A stretch of 64,000 nucleotides of DNA from Flavobacterium sandaracinum (lineage in GTDB: Bacteria; Bacteroidota; Bacteroidia; Flavobacteriales; Flavobacteriaceae). Positions 3,490 to 7,688 of the stretch are shown here, in pieces. The translations under genes were made by a program, and so were the position numbers. How positions within the stretch are numbered: position 1 is the first letter of the stretch; each line of letters begins with the position of its first letter. Where the stretch lies: assembly GCF_004349135.1 (NCBI RefSeq), contig NZ_SMFN01000011.1, positions 62,001 to 126,000 on the forward strand, in the 5' to 3' direction. The notes under the pieces are model-generated. The model was not told the DNA's origin and made no database searches. It saw only the letters and a list, made by a program, of their open reading frames with translations.

Positions 3490-3502
3490 ACAAATTCTTA
3501 GT

Positions 3503-3606
3503 GTTATCTTTCCACGTTTGGCGTGGTAGAATGCAGCACCTTCTTCGATAAATCGAAGGGTTGCTAAGGCTTCATCGGGTCTAATCCCTCTGCCTTTCTT
3601 TATAAC
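3503..3606 (-). promoter_or_regulatory. SAM-I (S-box) riboswitch upstream of metX-thrA
   Basis: On the minus strand the S-box core is plain: AAGGCAGAGGGA, then GACCCGATGAAGCCTTAGC, then AACC and GGTGCT. P1 is GUUAU/AUAAC (3606-3602 with 3507-3503). P2 is AAGGC/GCCUU. P3 is the CUUCGAU/AUCGAAG hairpin, and P4 is CCACG/CGUGG. The core matches the known SAM-I aptamer, which turns off methionine genes when S-adenosylmethionine is plentiful. It lies about 75 bases ahead of metX. Confidence 0.95.
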
Positions 3607-3635
3607 ATTTCAATACGTTTGTGAACTTAATGACG

Positions 3636-3841: not shown

Positions 3842-4051
3842 TTAAATAAAAAGCGCTTCATTCTCTTGTGAATACATTAGAAAAAGCAATGAATTGGGCA
3901 CGGACTTTTGAGCCAGAGGATCGTTTTTTGAAACTTCAAACCTAGGATGAATCAGTTCGTTTTTAGAAACGTTATCCTTCTCTTTTTTAGGTGTTAGGTC
4001 AATCCTTTTTAATAAATCGAAAGTTTTCGGAAAATACTTAGTTGTGCTCAT
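3842..4051 (-). CDS. Small hypothetical protein, 69 residues
   Basis: I do not recognise this gene. It is an uninterrupted 69-codon frame starting MSTTKYFPKTFDLL, lysine-rich and polar, with no signal peptide, membrane segment or cysteine. It lies downstream of two tandem leader-peptide/terminator modules and upstream of the palindrome and SAM-I riboswitch, so it may be the first gene those modules control. A 15-base sequence directly before its start (4054-4068) is repeated inside it at 3985-3999, exactly 69 bases away. No promoter or ribosome site is evident. It may be a real short gene, part of a regulatory leader, or a remnant. Confidence 0.4.
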   Translation of the reverse strand: MSTTKYFPKTFDLLKRIDLTPKKEKDNVSKNELIHPRFEVSKNDPLAQKSVPNSLLFLMYSQENEALFI

Positions 4052-4117
4052 AATTTTAGGTGTTAGGTTATTAAACTCATTTGTGATCGCTACTTATTTT
4101 TAAAATTAATTTTAGAA

Positions 4118-4155
4118 ACAAAAAACCCTTTTAGATCCATATCCAAAAGGGTTTT
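4118..4155 (-). terminator. Terminator 2, after the 29-codon leader
   Basis: On the minus strand AAAACCCTTTT pairs with AAAAGGGTTTT (11 bp), followed by T residues. The 5' arm, read as CTTTTGG (4149-4143), can instead pair with CCAAAAG at 4183-4177, just past the leader stop codon. AAGTT/AACTT inside extends that alternative. This gives mutually exclusive terminator and antiterminator structures. Confidence 0.8.
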
Positions 4156-4185
4156 AAGTTGTGTTATGAACTTATACTTTTGGAA

Positions 4186-4275
4186 TCAACAGACATAAAG
4201 AAACATCATAGCTTGGACCGTTGTCATCTTATTGGCTGTTACTTTAATCGGGTACTGAAATTTTAAATTAATCAT
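4186..4275 (-). CDS. Putative methionine-rich leader peptide, 29 residues
   Basis: A 29-codon frame beginning MINLKFQYPIKV and ending KMTTVQAMMFLYVC before TGA. After the start, Met codons fall at 17, 23 and 24, close to the end. An intrinsic terminator begins 31 bases after the stop. A ribosome finishing the peptide would cover CCAAAAG at 4183-4177 and let the terminator form. One held at Met23-Met24 would leave it free to form the antiterminator with 4149-4143. It has no clear promoter of its own and probably needs readthrough of terminator 1. Leader function is inferred from position, codon content and RNA pairing; there is no recognised family. Confidence 0.6.
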   Translation of the reverse strand: MINLKFQYPIKVTANKMTTVQAMMFLYVC

Positions 4276-4316
4276 GTATGCTTCTCTTTCTGTAAAAATT
4301 AGTCTTTTAGTCTTCA

Positions 4317-4349
4317 AAAAAAAAGCTTCCCGTTATCTGGGAAGCTTTT
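4317..4349 (-). terminator. Terminator 1, after the 22-codon leader
   Basis: On the minus strand AAAGCTTCCC and GGGAAGCTTT form a 10-bp stem followed by eight T. The 5' arm AAGCTTCCC (4347-4339) can alternatively pair with GGGTCGCTT in leader codons 18-20 (4389-4381) at 7 of 9 positions. Confidence 0.85.
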
Positions 4350-4371
4350 GCTATATAATTTGATTTAAAAA

Positions 4372-4440
4372 TTATGCAATAAGCGACCCGCAGGAATTAT
4401 CCTGTGCGACTTTGAACGTATTGCAAATATTAAATTTCAT
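4372..4440 (-). CDS. Putative leader peptide, 22 residues, paralogue of the metY leader
   Basis: A 22-codon frame, MKFNICNTFKVAQ then DNSCGSLIA. It has the same length, promoter, spacing and RNA layout as the leader before metY (6030-6098), although only a few residues are shared (MKF, Asn7, Ser16). Codons 13-17 form a CAGGA/TCCTG hairpin. Codons 18-20 can pair with the 5' arm of terminator 1. Cys codons at 6 and 17 hint at cysteine sensing, but Cys6 is rather far from the hairpin, so the sensed amino acid is unclear. The stop lies 23 bases before the terminator. Confidence 0.6.
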   Translation of the reverse strand: MKFNICNTFKVAQDNSCGSLIA

Positions 4441-4563: not shown

Positions 4564-5856
4564 TTATGCCAGTTGCCCTTTCTTTATACTTTCAAAAACG
4601 ACTCTCAAATCTGTTTTTAAATCTTCTATATCTTCTAAACCAACAGAAAGACGAATTAAATCCCTAGAAACTCCCGTGGCAACTTGTTCTTCCTCAGATA
4701 ATTGTTGGTGCGTTGTACTGGCGGGATGAATAATTAATGATTTAGTGTCACCAATATTAGCCAAAAGTGAGAATAATTTTGTTTCGTCGGCGACTTTTTT
4801 GGCTGCTTCAAAGCCACCATGCAAACCAAAAGTAACCACGCCACTTTGCCCTTTTGGCAAATAGTGTTGCGCTAAAGCATAATATTTATTGGATTTCAAT
4901 CCTGGATAATTGACCCATGCAACCGCTTCCTGAGTTTCCAACCACTGCGCGAGAGCCAAGGCATTTTCACTGTGTCTTTGAATTCTTATTGGTAAGGTTT
5001 CTAATCCTTGAATGATCTGAAATGCATTAAACGGACTCAGTGCAGCGCCGTAATCACGCAATCCTTCAATTCGAACTTTAGCAATAAAAGCCGCATTTCC
5101 TAACGCCTCGTGATACACTAATCCGTGATAACCTGCAGACGGCTCCGTGAATTCTGGGAACTTTCCATTGGTCCAATCAAAATTTCCTGCATCAATAACT
5201 ACTCCTCCAAGCGAAGTTCCGTTTCCAGTAATGTATTTTGTCAAAGAATGAATAACAATATCAGCCCCGTATTGGATTGGATTTAATAAGTAAGGCGAAG
5301 CAACAGTATTATCTACAATTAATGGCACTTGAGCTGCTTTGGCCTCAGCCGAAATCGCTTCCAAATCCAAAACATCTAATTTTGGATTTCCCAAAGATTC
5401 CACAAAAATTGCTCTGGTATTTTCTTGAACCGCATTTTTAAAATTAGCGGCATCAGATGGATCTACAAATGTGGTTGTAATTCCTAACCGAGGCAACGTA
5501 ACTTTTAATAAATTATAGGTGCCACCATACAAACTATTTGAAGCTACAATGTGATCGCCAGCTTTTAACAGCACTAATAATGTAGTAGCAATGGCTGCCG
5601 TTCCAGAAGCTGTAACTACTGCACCAATTCCACCTTCTAGGATGGCTAAGCGCTGTTCCAGTATATCATTTGTTGGATTATTTAATCTTGTGTAAATAAA
5701 TCCAGGCTCCGCAAGGCCAAAAAGATTAGCGGCATGATCCGAATTATTAAAAACATAAGAACTTGTTTGATAAATAGGAACAGCTCTGGTTCCTGCGTTT
5801 TTTGTTACGTCGTGCCCCGCGTGTAGTGCGTTTGTTGCAAATTTCTGTGTGCTCAT
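4564..5856 (-). CDS. metY: O-acetylhomoserine sulfhydrylase (PLP-dependent)
   Basis: Converts O-acetylhomoserine and sulfide to homocysteine in the cytoplasm. It is 430 residues, the usual length for the family. Cys/Met-metabolism PLP enzyme hallmarks are present: YTRLNNPT at 55-62, the PLP-ring stacking segment SLYGGTYN at 108-115, VDNT with Asp182, and the Schiff-base Lys207 in SLTKY. The long C-terminal half and GNGTSLGG after the lysine fit sulfhydrylases rather than cystathionine synthases. It is transcribed behind a leader-peptide/terminator module (5974-6153) and lies next to metK and metX. No terminator is seen right after its stop. Confidence 0.95.
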   Translation of the reverse strand: MSTQKFATNALHAGHDVTKNAGTRAVPIYQTSSYVFNNSDHAANLFGLAEPGFIYTRLNNPTNDILEQRLAILEGGIGAVVTASGTAAIATTLLVLLKAGDHIVASNSLYGGTYNLLKVTLPRLGITTTFVDPSDAANFKNAVQENTRAIFVESLGNPKLDVLDLEAISAEAKAAQVPLIVDNTVASPYLLNPIQYGADIVIHSLTKYITGNGTSLGGVVIDAGNFDWTNGKFPEFTEPSAGYHGLVYHEALGNAAFIAKVRIEGLRDYGAALSPFNAFQIIQGLETLPIRIQRHSENALALAQWLETQEAVAWVNYPGLKSNKYYALAQHYLPKGQSGVVTFGLHGGFEAAKKVADETKLFSLLANIGDTKSLIIHPASTTHQQLSEEEQVATGVSRDLIRLSVGLEDIEDLKTDLRVVFESIKKGQLA

Positions 5857-5973
5857 AAGATTTAAATTTTAAGATTAGTTGGTTGTTTTTGTTACTAGTA
5901 GTTACTCTTTATGCTTCATTTACAATACTGTTATTAATTTTCGAAATAAAATTTAGCTAAGGTTATTTATTCC

Positions 5974-6003
5974 ATAAAAAAACCCCTGCCAATAGCAGAG
6001 GTC
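5974..6003 (-). terminator. Attenuator terminator before metY
   Basis: On the minus strand ACCTCTGC and GCAGGGGT form an 8-bp stem (one G-U) followed by seven T. It lies between the leader stop (6030) and metY (5856), so it must be read through for metY to be expressed. Its 5' arm CTCTGC (6000-5995) is exactly complementary to GCAGAG in leader codons 17-18. Confidence 0.85.
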
Positions 6004-6029
6004 TTTCGTTTATAATTTATTTTTAAAAA

Positions 6030-6098
6030 CTATACAACAGTGCACTCTGCGGAGAACTCCGGCATCATAAAACACATATTGACAGTAATAAATTTCAT
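6030..6098 (-). CDS. Putative methionine-sensing leader peptide of metY, 22 residues
   Basis: A 22-codon frame, MKFITVNMCFMM then PEFSAECTVV. Met codons sit at 8, 11 and 12 and Cys at 9 and 19. Codons 13-17 form a short CGGA/TCCG hairpin (6061-6050). GCAGAG at codons 17-18 (6050-6045) can pair with CTCTGC of the terminator. A ribosome waiting at Met8-Met12 would cover the first hairpin arm, free GCAGAG, block the terminator and allow metY transcription. This is the classical attenuation layout. The frame is open further upstream, but the promoter at 6118-6153 places the transcript start after those codons. The model is inference; the pairings are read directly. Confidence 0.7.
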   Translation of the reverse strand: MKFITVNMCFMMPEFSAECTVV

Positions 6099-6117
6099 TT
6101 TTTTCTTTTTGATGAAA

Positions 6118-6153
6118 CAAATTTGCAAACTTTTCTTGAAACCACCAAATAAA
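6118..6153 (-). promoter_or_regulatory. Promoter of the metY leader transcript
   Basis: On the minus strand TTTATTTGG, 18 bases, GCAAATTTG, then 19 bases to the leader ATG. This matches the other leader promoter (4459-4494) in both boxes and in spacing, and resembles the Bacteroidota TTTG/TAnnTTTG pattern. Confidence 0.7.
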
Positions 6154-6274: not shown

Positions 6275-6415
6275 ATACAAGAGGAAAAATTTGAACTGAT
6301 TGCAACCTCTTCATAATGAAATCAATTCATTGTGAATACTGAAAATTTTTCAGTAGAAAAAATGCTAAAGCAGGAACCCTCCTTTAGTCCTTTTCAGCAA
6401 TTATTTTTCCTCGCT
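6275..6415 (+). promoter_or_regulatory. SAM-II riboswitch and expression platform upstream of metK
   Basis: P1 is AGAGG/CCTCT (6280-6284 with 6306-6310). The loop holds ATTTGAACTGATTGCAA, close to the SAM-II consensus, and the downstream pseudoknot strand ATGCTAAAGCAGG lies at 6362-6374. Between P1 and that strand is an insert of about 50 bases with two further hairpins (TTCATAATGAA/TTCATTGTGAA and TACTGAAAA/TTTTCAGTA). GAGGAAAAAT (6281-6290) is perfectly complementary to ATTTTTCCTC (6403-6412), 25 bases before the metK start, and CTAAAG/CTTTAG (6365-6387) can hide the pseudoknot strand. These are candidate alternative pairings for the off/on switch. SAM is the product of MetK, so this is feedback control. 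Confidence 0.85.
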
Positions 6416-6437: not shown

Positions 6438-7688
6438 ATGGCCTATTTATTTACGTCAGAATCTGTAAGCGAAGGACATCCAGACAAAATTGCAGATCAA
6501 ATTTCGGACGCATTAATTGATAATTTTTTGGCATTTGATGCTGATTCAAAAGTAGCTTGTGAAACTTTAGTAACAACTGGTCAAGTAATTTTGGCTGGTG
6601 AAGTAAAATCAAATACCTATTTAGATGTACAACATATCGCTCGTGAGGTAATCCGAAAAATTGGTTACACTAAAAGCGAATACATGTTTGAAGCCAATTC
6701 TTGTGGAATCCTTTCTGCTATTCACGAACAATCTGCTGATATCAACCAAGGGGTAGACAGAGCAAATCCGGAAGAACAAGGCGCTGGTGACCAAGGAATG
6801 ATGTTTGGTTACGCAACGAATGAAACCGAAAATTACATGCCATTGGCACTTGATTTATCTCATAAATTATTGCAAGAGTTAGCGATTTTAAGACGTGAAA
6901 ATAACGAAATTACGTATTTGCGTCCTGATGCTAAATCTCAAGTAACTTTAGAATACAGCGATGACAACAAGCCAACTCGTATTGATGCTATCGTAATCTC
7001 GACACAACATGATGATTTTGATGAAGAAGCAACAATGCTGGCTAAAATCAAAAAAGATCTTGTTGAAATATTGATTCCAAGGATTATTGCAAAAAATCCA
7101 ACGCATGCTCATTTATTCAACGATGCAATCCAATACCACATTAACCCAACTGGAAAATTCGTAATTGGTGGACCACACGGAGATACTGGATTGACAGGAA
7201 GAAAAATCATTGTGGATACTTATGGTGGAAAAGGCGCTCACGGTGGTGGTGCATTCTCTGGAAAAGATCCAAGTAAAGTAGATAGAAGTGCGGCTTATGC
7301 TACACGTCATATCGCTAAAAACTTAGTTGCAGCTGGTGTTGCTGATGAAATATTAGTACAAGTTTCGTATGCAATTGGAGTAGCTAAACCAATGGGGATT
7401 TTTATTGATACGTATGGAACTTCAAAAGTGAATTTGACCAATGGTGAAATCGCCAAAAAAGTAGAAGCTATTTTTGACATGCGTCCTTACTTTATTGAGC
7501 AACGCTTGAAGTTAAGAAACCCAATCTATAGCGAAACTGCTGCTTACGGGCACATGGGTCGTACTCCAGAAACGGTTACTAAAACTTTTACTGCTCCAGG
7601 AGGATTAACAAAAACTGTGACAGTTGATTTGTTTACTTGGGAAAAACTAGATTTCGTTGACCAAGTTAAAACTGCTTTTGGATTGTAA
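6438..7688 (+). CDS. metK: S-adenosylmethionine synthetase
   Basis: Makes S-adenosylmethionine from methionine and ATP. It is 416 residues, with the N-terminal signature [11 protein letters not shown] (residues 7-17), [15 protein letters not shown] near 115-129, and the glycine-rich phosphate loop [16 protein letters not shown] near 269-284. All three are hallmark MetK motifs. It is transcribed away from metY behind its own consensus promoter and a SAM-II riboswitch. A strong hairpin follows the stop. The start is the only ATG that gives the canonical N-terminus. Confidence 0.98.

Follow-up and report, generated by a model that had tools for sequence, protein, structure and literature searches.

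Transcription attenuators of the trp, his and phe type consist of a leader ORF with regulatory codons, the alternative pairings 1:2, 2:3 and 3:4, and a terminator, all placed before a gene of the pathway concerned. For methionine genes, the usual examples of control are repressors, SAM riboswitches and T-boxes. Judging by its title, a study by Canestrari et al. from 2020 reportedly deals with cysteine leader peptides of Actinobacteria, and a paper by Lopatovskaya et al. from 2010 is said to be one that could include methionine leader cases of the kind described below. A search of the open-access literature, with most subscription papers and supplements outside its scope, found no methionine leader-peptide attenuator. 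To this extent the preliminary description of the locus, which knew of no such attenuator in Bacteroidota, holds, but leader-peptide attenuation as such has already been suggested for Flavobacterium psychrophilum, where strong clues for it were reported upstream of amino-acid operons and where the pheA and hisG elements are common to the family; in the main text of that study on a member of the same genus the word methionine is absent (PMC9723704, accessible part). The accessible portion of another paper describes leader peptides as known in Proteobacteria and Actinobacteria and adds Firmicutes, with no mention of Bacteroidetes (PMC2965389), and leader-like sORFs have been reported in Bacteroides (PMC7366714, in the part at hand). 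In Actinobacteria, leader ORFs with runs of Cys codons precede cys genes without conserved terminator hairpins, and the methionine operons have no conserved RNA structures upstream, as far as the accessible text goes (PMC1262725); compared with these cysteine leaders, the metY leaders described here add terminators, conserved antiterminators and frequent Met codons. The 5'UTR of the Xanthomonas met operon is methionine-responsive too, with a control reported to be mainly translational and the term leader peptide absent from the main text (PMC6230763, accessible part). Two attenuators and short ORFs are combined in one leader also in Salmonella mgtCBR, which responds to a different signal and, going by the accessible text, has no known relation to metY leaders (PMC3641672).

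The element considered here precedes metY in a stretch of 64,000 nt from Flavobacterium sandaracinum (NZ_SMFN01000011.1, 62,001-126,000), the window, to which all coordinates refer (Table 1). Like the trp, his and phe attenuators, the metY leader has putative regulatory codons, alternative pairings, an intrinsic terminator and a gene of the pathway behind it, and unlike them, it has Met and Cys codons together, its strand 2 lies inside the ORF near the stop codon, the arrangement is in tandem in 46 of 61 related loci (from the best 80 of 566), and the hosts are Flavobacteriales, which initiate without Shine-Dalgarno pairing. The Met/Cys-rich short ORF, the pairings 2:3 and 3:4 with a weak candidate hairpin 1:2, the near-constant spacing from the last Met/Cys codon to strand 2 and the intrinsic terminator can be read directly from the sequence and its comparison with relatives, and it is very likely, though at the level of sequence, that they constitute a classical, ribosome-mediated transcription attenuator of metY. 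With strong comparative support, the element would thus be a conserved attenuator of classical type, with an unusual combination of sensed amino acids and a frequent tandem arrangement. A conserved methionine leader-peptide attenuator would be a further sensor for the same gene, in a phylum that initiates without Shine-Dalgarno pairing and for which there are few studies of attenuation.

Table 1. Features of the metY region, in window positions
Feature	Position	Strand	Remarks
metX-like gene	3428-2460	-	MetX models match, below cut-offs
SAM-I riboswitch before metX-like gene	3501..3608	-	RF00162, 78.5 bits
69-aa ORF behind second attenuator pair	3842..4051	-	
Second pair, attenuator B	4115..4275	-	leader 4275-4186 MINLKFQYPIKVTANKMTTVQAMMFLYVC, CCAAAAG strand 2, terminator ~4155-4115
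Second pair, attenuator A (type X)	4313..4440	-	leader 4440-4372 MKFNICNTFKVAQDNSCGSLIA, terminator ~4349-4313
metY	4564..5856	-	O-acetylhomoserine/O-acetylserine sulfhydrylase family; PF01053 and TIGR01326
Intrinsic terminator 3:4 with T-tract	about 5976..6004	-	strand 4 GCAGGG 5989-5984
Strand 3 CTCTGC, common to antiterminator and terminator	5995..6000	-	
AT-rich stem between strands 2 and 3	6011..6034	-	6034-6027 with 6018-6011, fold prediction
Strand 2 GCAGAG, antiterminator 5' side	6045..6050	-	
Hairpin 1:2	6050..6061	-	CGGA 6061-6058 with TCCG 6053-6050
Codons Met8, Cys9, Phe10, Met11, Met12	6063..6077	-	
Leader ORF, 22 codons	6030..6098	-	MKFITVNMCFMMPEFSAECTVV; ATG at 6098, stop ending 6030
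Putative Bacteroidota-type promoter	6118..6149	-	TTTG 6149-6146 (-33), CAAATTTG 6125-6118 (-7)
SAM-II riboswitch before metK	6275-6378	+	opposite attenuator strand; 47.3 bits, Rfam
metK	6438-7688	+	TIGR01034 match; divergent from metY

That the downstream gene is metY, as had been proposed, is borne out by TIGR01326 (O-acetylhomoserine aminocarboxypropyltransferase/cysteine synthase; 641 bits at a cut-off of 495). With SAM-I before the metX-like gene and SAM-II before metK, a single methionine locus would, provided that the metY attenuator is real, contain three distinct RNA-based solutions in about 3 kb. SAM-II is matched as well in 12 of the 15 attenuator loci and in 7 of the 15 SAM-I loci that were searched for it. 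In the same genome (L181, C3:55500-62027), cysH and cysD-like genes (PF01507) lie a few kb past the metY-metX-thrA cluster on the same strand, which makes the region look like a single sulfur amino-acid locus.

The 22-codon ORF with Met at codons 8, 11 and 12 of the preliminary description is found on the minus strand as it had been given; besides these and the start codon, the leader has Cys at codons 9 and 19. Five of the 302 short ATG ORFs of the window (18-35 codons) have at least five Met and Cys codons after the start, as the metY leader has. The proposed CGGA/TCCG hairpin is in place as well, with a weak fold (-3.3 kcal/mol, shuffle p = 0.13), the GCAGAG and CTCTGC of strands 2 and 3 are exact complements at the positions named before, and the intrinsic terminator is present, with a predicted fold of -15.3 kcal/mol (5972-6005), although it was missed by a generic terminator scan. 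Compared with dinucleotide shuffles, the whole leader RNA has a folding z of -4.5, which is due to this terminator; the segment between hairpin 1:2 and the terminator alone reaches z = -0.9, and 35 of 200 shuffles are equally good. In this segment, the AT-rich stem is predicted to be the apical part of the antiterminator. As to the promoter, a generic sigma-70 scan gave none at the leader (in the window 2 promoter-like sites versus 4.3 in shuffles), but a Bacteroidota-type -7 box (NAnnTTTG) is found 12-35 nt 5' of the leader ATG in 50 of the 52 elements of the attenuator-1 set defined below, in 41 of the 52 together with an upstream TTG, and transcription of the metY leader would, on the basis of these boxes, start near 6112. 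The published promoter consensus is TAnnTTTG (PMC9723704, accessible part). An A at -3 of the leader ATG is found in 46 of the 52 elements.

Relatives of MetY were taken as the best 80 of 566 confirmed stretches. In 61 of these 80 loci, a single Met/Cys-rich leader ORF or a pair of them precedes metY, with a terminator behind each, and in the other 19 a SAM-I-like pattern does so instead, whereas both or neither were seen in none of the 80. The SAM-I pattern was confirmed with Rfam in 15 of 15 tested of the 19 loci, and SAM-I was found before metY in 0 of 15 tested of the 61 leader loci, in which ten SAM-I matches lie downstream of metY. SAM-I (S-box) precedes the same gene in other Flavobacteriaceae, where control by methionine status is expected, but it is an aptamer for SAM, has no leader ORF, and among these best 80 of 566 loci never accompanies attenuators before metY; this mutual exclusion would amount to a natural experiment in which sensing of SAM and sensing of charged tRNA can be compared by lineage. 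Attenuator 1 is present in 56 of the 61 leader loci (counting L004, with a leader that has no stop, and four loci where it is of the divergent type X described below), attenuator 2 in 51, and both in 46; holders include Flavobacterium, Kordia, Salegentibacter, Christiangramia and Mesonia. By sequence, the window element corresponds to the first of these two tandem attenuators, and the metY of the window has kept the first only. What the preliminary description lacked is that Cys codons appear about as conspicuous as Met codons, and that the element seems to be one half of a frequent tandem pair.

Attenuator 1 was collected as 54 matches, of which 52 were retained as elements, including that of the window; L004 (wrong ORF picked, the leader being without a stop) and a chance match in L055 at -2234 were dropped. 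The leader length and the Met codons, for both of which conservation had been named as a check, are indeed kept: 32 of the 52 leaders have 22 codons (range 18-26), and all 52 have at least four Met and Cys codons after the start. The last Met/Cys codon, which is Met in 46 and Cys in 6 of the 52, starts 15 nt before strand 2 in 33 elements, 14 nt in 18 and 17 nt in one. Strand 2 itself is read in frame 0 in 33 of the 52 elements (e.g. as SAE) and in frame 2 in 19 (e.g. as PQR) with the ORF staying open, so that it is the RNA and not the peptide that is kept there, and constraint on RNA, towards the stop codon, can be told apart in these sequences from constraint on codons, at the Met/Cys run. 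That the element is a chance arrangement or decayed sequence of this one genome is hardly conceivable, as every part of the attenuator is preserved both in the window and in L001 (F. xanthum DSM 3661), its nearest relative, although the second attenuator is missing at the metY of the window and a leader without a stop does occur in L004. In this record of F. psychrophilum, the first leader, unlike that of the window, lacks a stop codon ahead of the terminator, through which the reading frame continues, and the first attenuator looks defective there.

The pairings were assessed in an alignment (A2) of 39 diverse sequences, consisting of 24 of the 52 elements and 15 of the 17 strong loci from the family search described below (L089 and L091 were left out, being on the same contigs as L017 and L047). 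For the 2:3 helix, 96.6% of 234 cells are paired, compared with at most 47.8% in slid structures, and the 8 unpaired cells are in six rows (L097, L101-L105). There are 14 double-changed cells in this helix, a number reached by 0 of 500 shuffles (mean 2.6), whereas its 3 pairs with a double change were reached by 17 and its 7 further pair types by 57 of 500 shuffles; shuffle controls on related sequences overstate significance. The 3:4 helix is paired in 99.6% of 273 cells, 19 of them double-changed (shuffle mean 2.6). GCAGAG thus covaries with CTCTGC, as had been suggested as a way to check the pairing, and also with strand 4, and the three strands vary together (GCAGCG/CGCTGC/GCAGCG, ACAGCG/CGCTGT/ACAGCG, GCAAGG/CCTTGC/GCAAGG), just as alternative pairings that share one strand predict. 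A count of 312 paired out of 312 in the 52 elements is partly built in, because the strands were found with consensus-shaped patterns, and the counts from the alignment are the independent test. Hairpin 1:2 was examined by folding of single sequences and not by column counting, because its register is shifted by one base from one species to another. It has a negative energy in all 31 distinct segments, with weak folds of -0.1 to -4.6 kcal/mol and p at most 0.05 in 17 of the 31. In Kordia, where it nearly vanishes in L047, and in Mesonia it is built from other bases.

In the proposed mechanism, a ribosome would reach the stop codon and cover strand 2 when Met-tRNA, and probably also Cys-tRNA, is well charged, strand 3 would then pair with strand 4, and transcription would end about 140 nt after the start. 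A shortage of charged Met-tRNA or Cys-tRNA would stall the ribosome on codons 8-12, where it would cover strand 1 and leave strand 2 free, so that 2:3 could form before strand 4 is made and the polymerase would enter metY. Without any ribosome, 1:2 and other leader pairings would compete with 2:3, with termination favoured in the window. For a model of this geometry, every leader was folded as far as strand 3, and the bases within the ribosome footprint were barred from pairing; this is an equilibrium calculation and not a kinetic one. When the last Met/Cys codon occupied the A site, the probability of the 2:3 pairing had a mean of 1.00 and a minimum of 0.98 in all 52 elements; the mean was 0.90 one codon later, 0.03 two codons later and 0.08 at the stop codon. 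Without a ribosome the mean was 0.39 and the median 0.12, and species were mixed in this respect. For the window, the probability stayed at 0.95-1.00 over codons 3-13, fell to 0.01 at codon 14 and was 0.00 for codon 15 and all later ones up to the stop; in the absence of a ribosome it was 0.09. The stall region Met8-Met12 proposed before is thus one from which a modelled ribosome leaves strand 2 free. For 3' edges of the footprint between +12 and +17, the last codon that still permits 2:3 is 0-2 codons past the last Met/Cys codon (3 in one case). With a ribosome at the stop codon, strand 3 partly pairs with other leader sequence (0.78 in the window, mean 0.40), and termination in the fed state may therefore be leaky.

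As to the amino acid that is sensed, Met makes up 16.5% and Cys 11.1% of the in-frame residues after the start in the 43 distinct leaders of attenuator 1, and 20.3% and 16.5% in the 46 distinct leaders of attenuator 2, while short ORFs of the window have 2.2% Met and 2.6% Cys, and long ORFs 2.2% and 0.5%. Met and Cys together reach 27.6% in frame in attenuator 1, compared with 11.5% and 4.6% when it is read off frame; the short ORFs of the window have 4.8%. The signal would be methionine, probably with cysteine as a second input, as judged from codon content, and because the Cys codons are about as conspicuous as the Met codons, the signal may be sulfur amino acids. A sensor of the same architecture that responds to cysteine, with the Met codons mattering little, would be a sub-version of the attenuator reading, with which its probability overlaps, and is in itself unlikely: the Cys contents of both leaders far above the 0.5% of the long ORFs, the cysteine synthase in the name of the MetY family, and pairs before cysH in two genomes, one with nine Cys in a leader (see below), speak for it, but the last Met/Cys codon before strand 2 is predominantly Met, the window has Met8, Met11 and Met12 with one Cys (codon 9) before strand 2, and Met is the more frequent residue of the two in attenuator 1.

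Another alternative is that attenuation depends on translation without being specific to an amino acid, and reports its general speed or initiation at clustered AUGs. Bacteroidota initiate without Shine-Dalgarno pairing and avoid extra AUGs near start codons (PMC6847099, accessible part), so that an AUG cluster could itself affect initiation. However, off-frame AUGs are rare, with 163 AUGs after the start in frame versus 8 and 1 off frame in attenuator 1 (46 distinct ORFs) and 277 versus 0 and 18 in attenuator 2, and the enrichment of Met and Cys (the only residues compared), the near-constant distance to strand 2 and the position before methionine genes likewise make this alternative quite improbable. 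Codons 1-12 of close relatives differ by 10 synonymous and 41 non-synonymous changes, a count in which no purifying selection on the leader peptide as a whole is seen.

Even less probable is that the terminator belongs to an independent small RNA, or that SAM is sensed by an undescribed aptamer. A short terminated transcript would look identical in RNA-seq, and SAM-I does precede metY in other genera, but the conserved features are codons and alternative pairings, and no Rfam aptamer is found in the leader at gathering scores. The candidate of a SAM riboswitch or other Rfam element was thus set aside; the best match of the relaxed search is the model of a Brucella sRNA, which reaches 34 bits where gathering would require 114. 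This model, BSnc120, matches at 5959-6046 (-) with E 2.3e-6, probably on terminator-like sequence. No T-box match was listed in the metY leader in the gathering and relaxed Rfam searches, and none of the Rfam amino-acid leader families reached its gathering score (Phe_leader had 19.9 bits, gathering 55).

In attenuator 2, a leader of the form ...TATTGCCAA(AAG) pairs with (CTT)TTGGTAATA..., and the pairing extends into the terminator loop. Its helix is paired in 91.0% of 233 cells from 23 sequences, versus at most 55.8% for slides, with 11 double-changed cells (shuffle mean 3.1), and its number of pairs with a double change was reached by 16 of 500 shuffles. In the model, attenuator 2 antiterminates without a ribosome (mean 0.80, n = 48) and is blocked from doing so by a ribosome at the stop (0.13), so that translation seems to be needed for termination at this attenuator. 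In ten loci (L005, L007, L008, L010, L012, L013, L018, L020, L021, L053), attenuator 1 lies about 3.6 kb upstream of metY. The ORF between the attenuators encodes a TonB-dependent receptor in L005 according to Pfam, and that of L007 looks alike; the receptor in L005 may have a role in uptake related to sulfur or methionine and be subject to the same switch.

The window has a second, divergent pair, which is located after metY and ahead of the 69-aa ORF, the SAM-I riboswitch and metX. Attenuator A reached 54.0 bits with model R1, which was built without it, and attenuator B 92.3 bits with model R2, whose alignment contains it. Leader A has no Met after the start and two Cys, leader B three Met and one Cys. 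In relatives, type X is found directly before metY (L015, L016, L027) or before a metY paralogue (L009). Met/Cys make up 14.4% of its first leaders versus 10.7% and 10.4% off frame, which is little excess, and 18.8% of its second leaders versus 6.9% and 6.5%, which is some. Small ORFs of 61-69 aa that end like SLLFxMYSxENExLFI are found 3' of the attenuators before metX or metY at several Flavobacterium loci, for example at 4051-3842 (-) in the window and at 3734-3919 in L005. Neither of the two tested has a Pfam match, and the 69-aa ORF of the window has no NCBIfam match either.

With model R1, the metY copy of the own genome scored 112.3 bits and the type X copy 54.0, and the other 18 of the 20 matches there scored at most 32.9; at six of the latter (L083-L088), tblastn found no metY, metX or metK nearby. 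R1 matches at E 0.01 or better occur in 170 of 199 genomes of the family, but those below about 45 bits are mostly ordinary terminators and were set aside, since the scores form two groups (at least 54 and at most 44.6 bits). Among the 199, 17 others reach at least 54 bits, one from the same genus and 16 from other genera, and the latter number is a lower bound because a weak match (L110, 42.5 bits) also precedes metY. Of these 17 strong loci, two of which are on contigs already in the sample, 14 precede metY, 2 precede metX and 1 ends at a contig edge. A search of the order gave matches at E 1e-6 in 21 of 196 genomes. In 13 further loci of the same genus (L118-L130), metY was found within the 1.5 kb fetched in 4 (L118, L121, L122, L125), and in the others metK alone, or metK and metX, adjoin the element.

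In other families of the order, the element is found before metY (L135), before metX (L132) and before a cysH operon (L131), where the leaders MIQIQKNMCCMCMCRNYTEAYYAL and MRTISGIQILTCCCTMTMCCCNCCCLKLPFLRR, the latter with nine Cys, are arranged in tandem with terminators (1501-1800); a fourth match in another family is in genome G233. Also in a genome of the window's genus (G243; L182 497-780), a pair with mixed Met and Cys, likewise with terminators, lies directly before cysH. A scan for Met/Cys leaders in about 1.5 kb upstream of 30 PF01507 loci from 81 genomes found 2, the operon start being out of reach where the match is a later gene of an operon. All this may belong to one sulfur amino-acid regulon of Flavobacteriales, in which tandem Met/Cys leaders of dual input would stall ribosomes upon either shortage, attenuators in series would multiply the response, SAM-I would be replaced before metY, and the device would in some lineages have come to control cysH and a TonB-dependent receptor, a scenario towards which belief and doubt are about balanced. 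Among 198 genomes of the phylum, one R1 match outside the genus was found at E 1e-6 (L150, from another class of the phylum). It was rejected as a metY-type element, as it is another system, with a His-rich leader (MTAKKLNTTHMHWHHIITFELAGG) and a terminator before a hisG-like gene.
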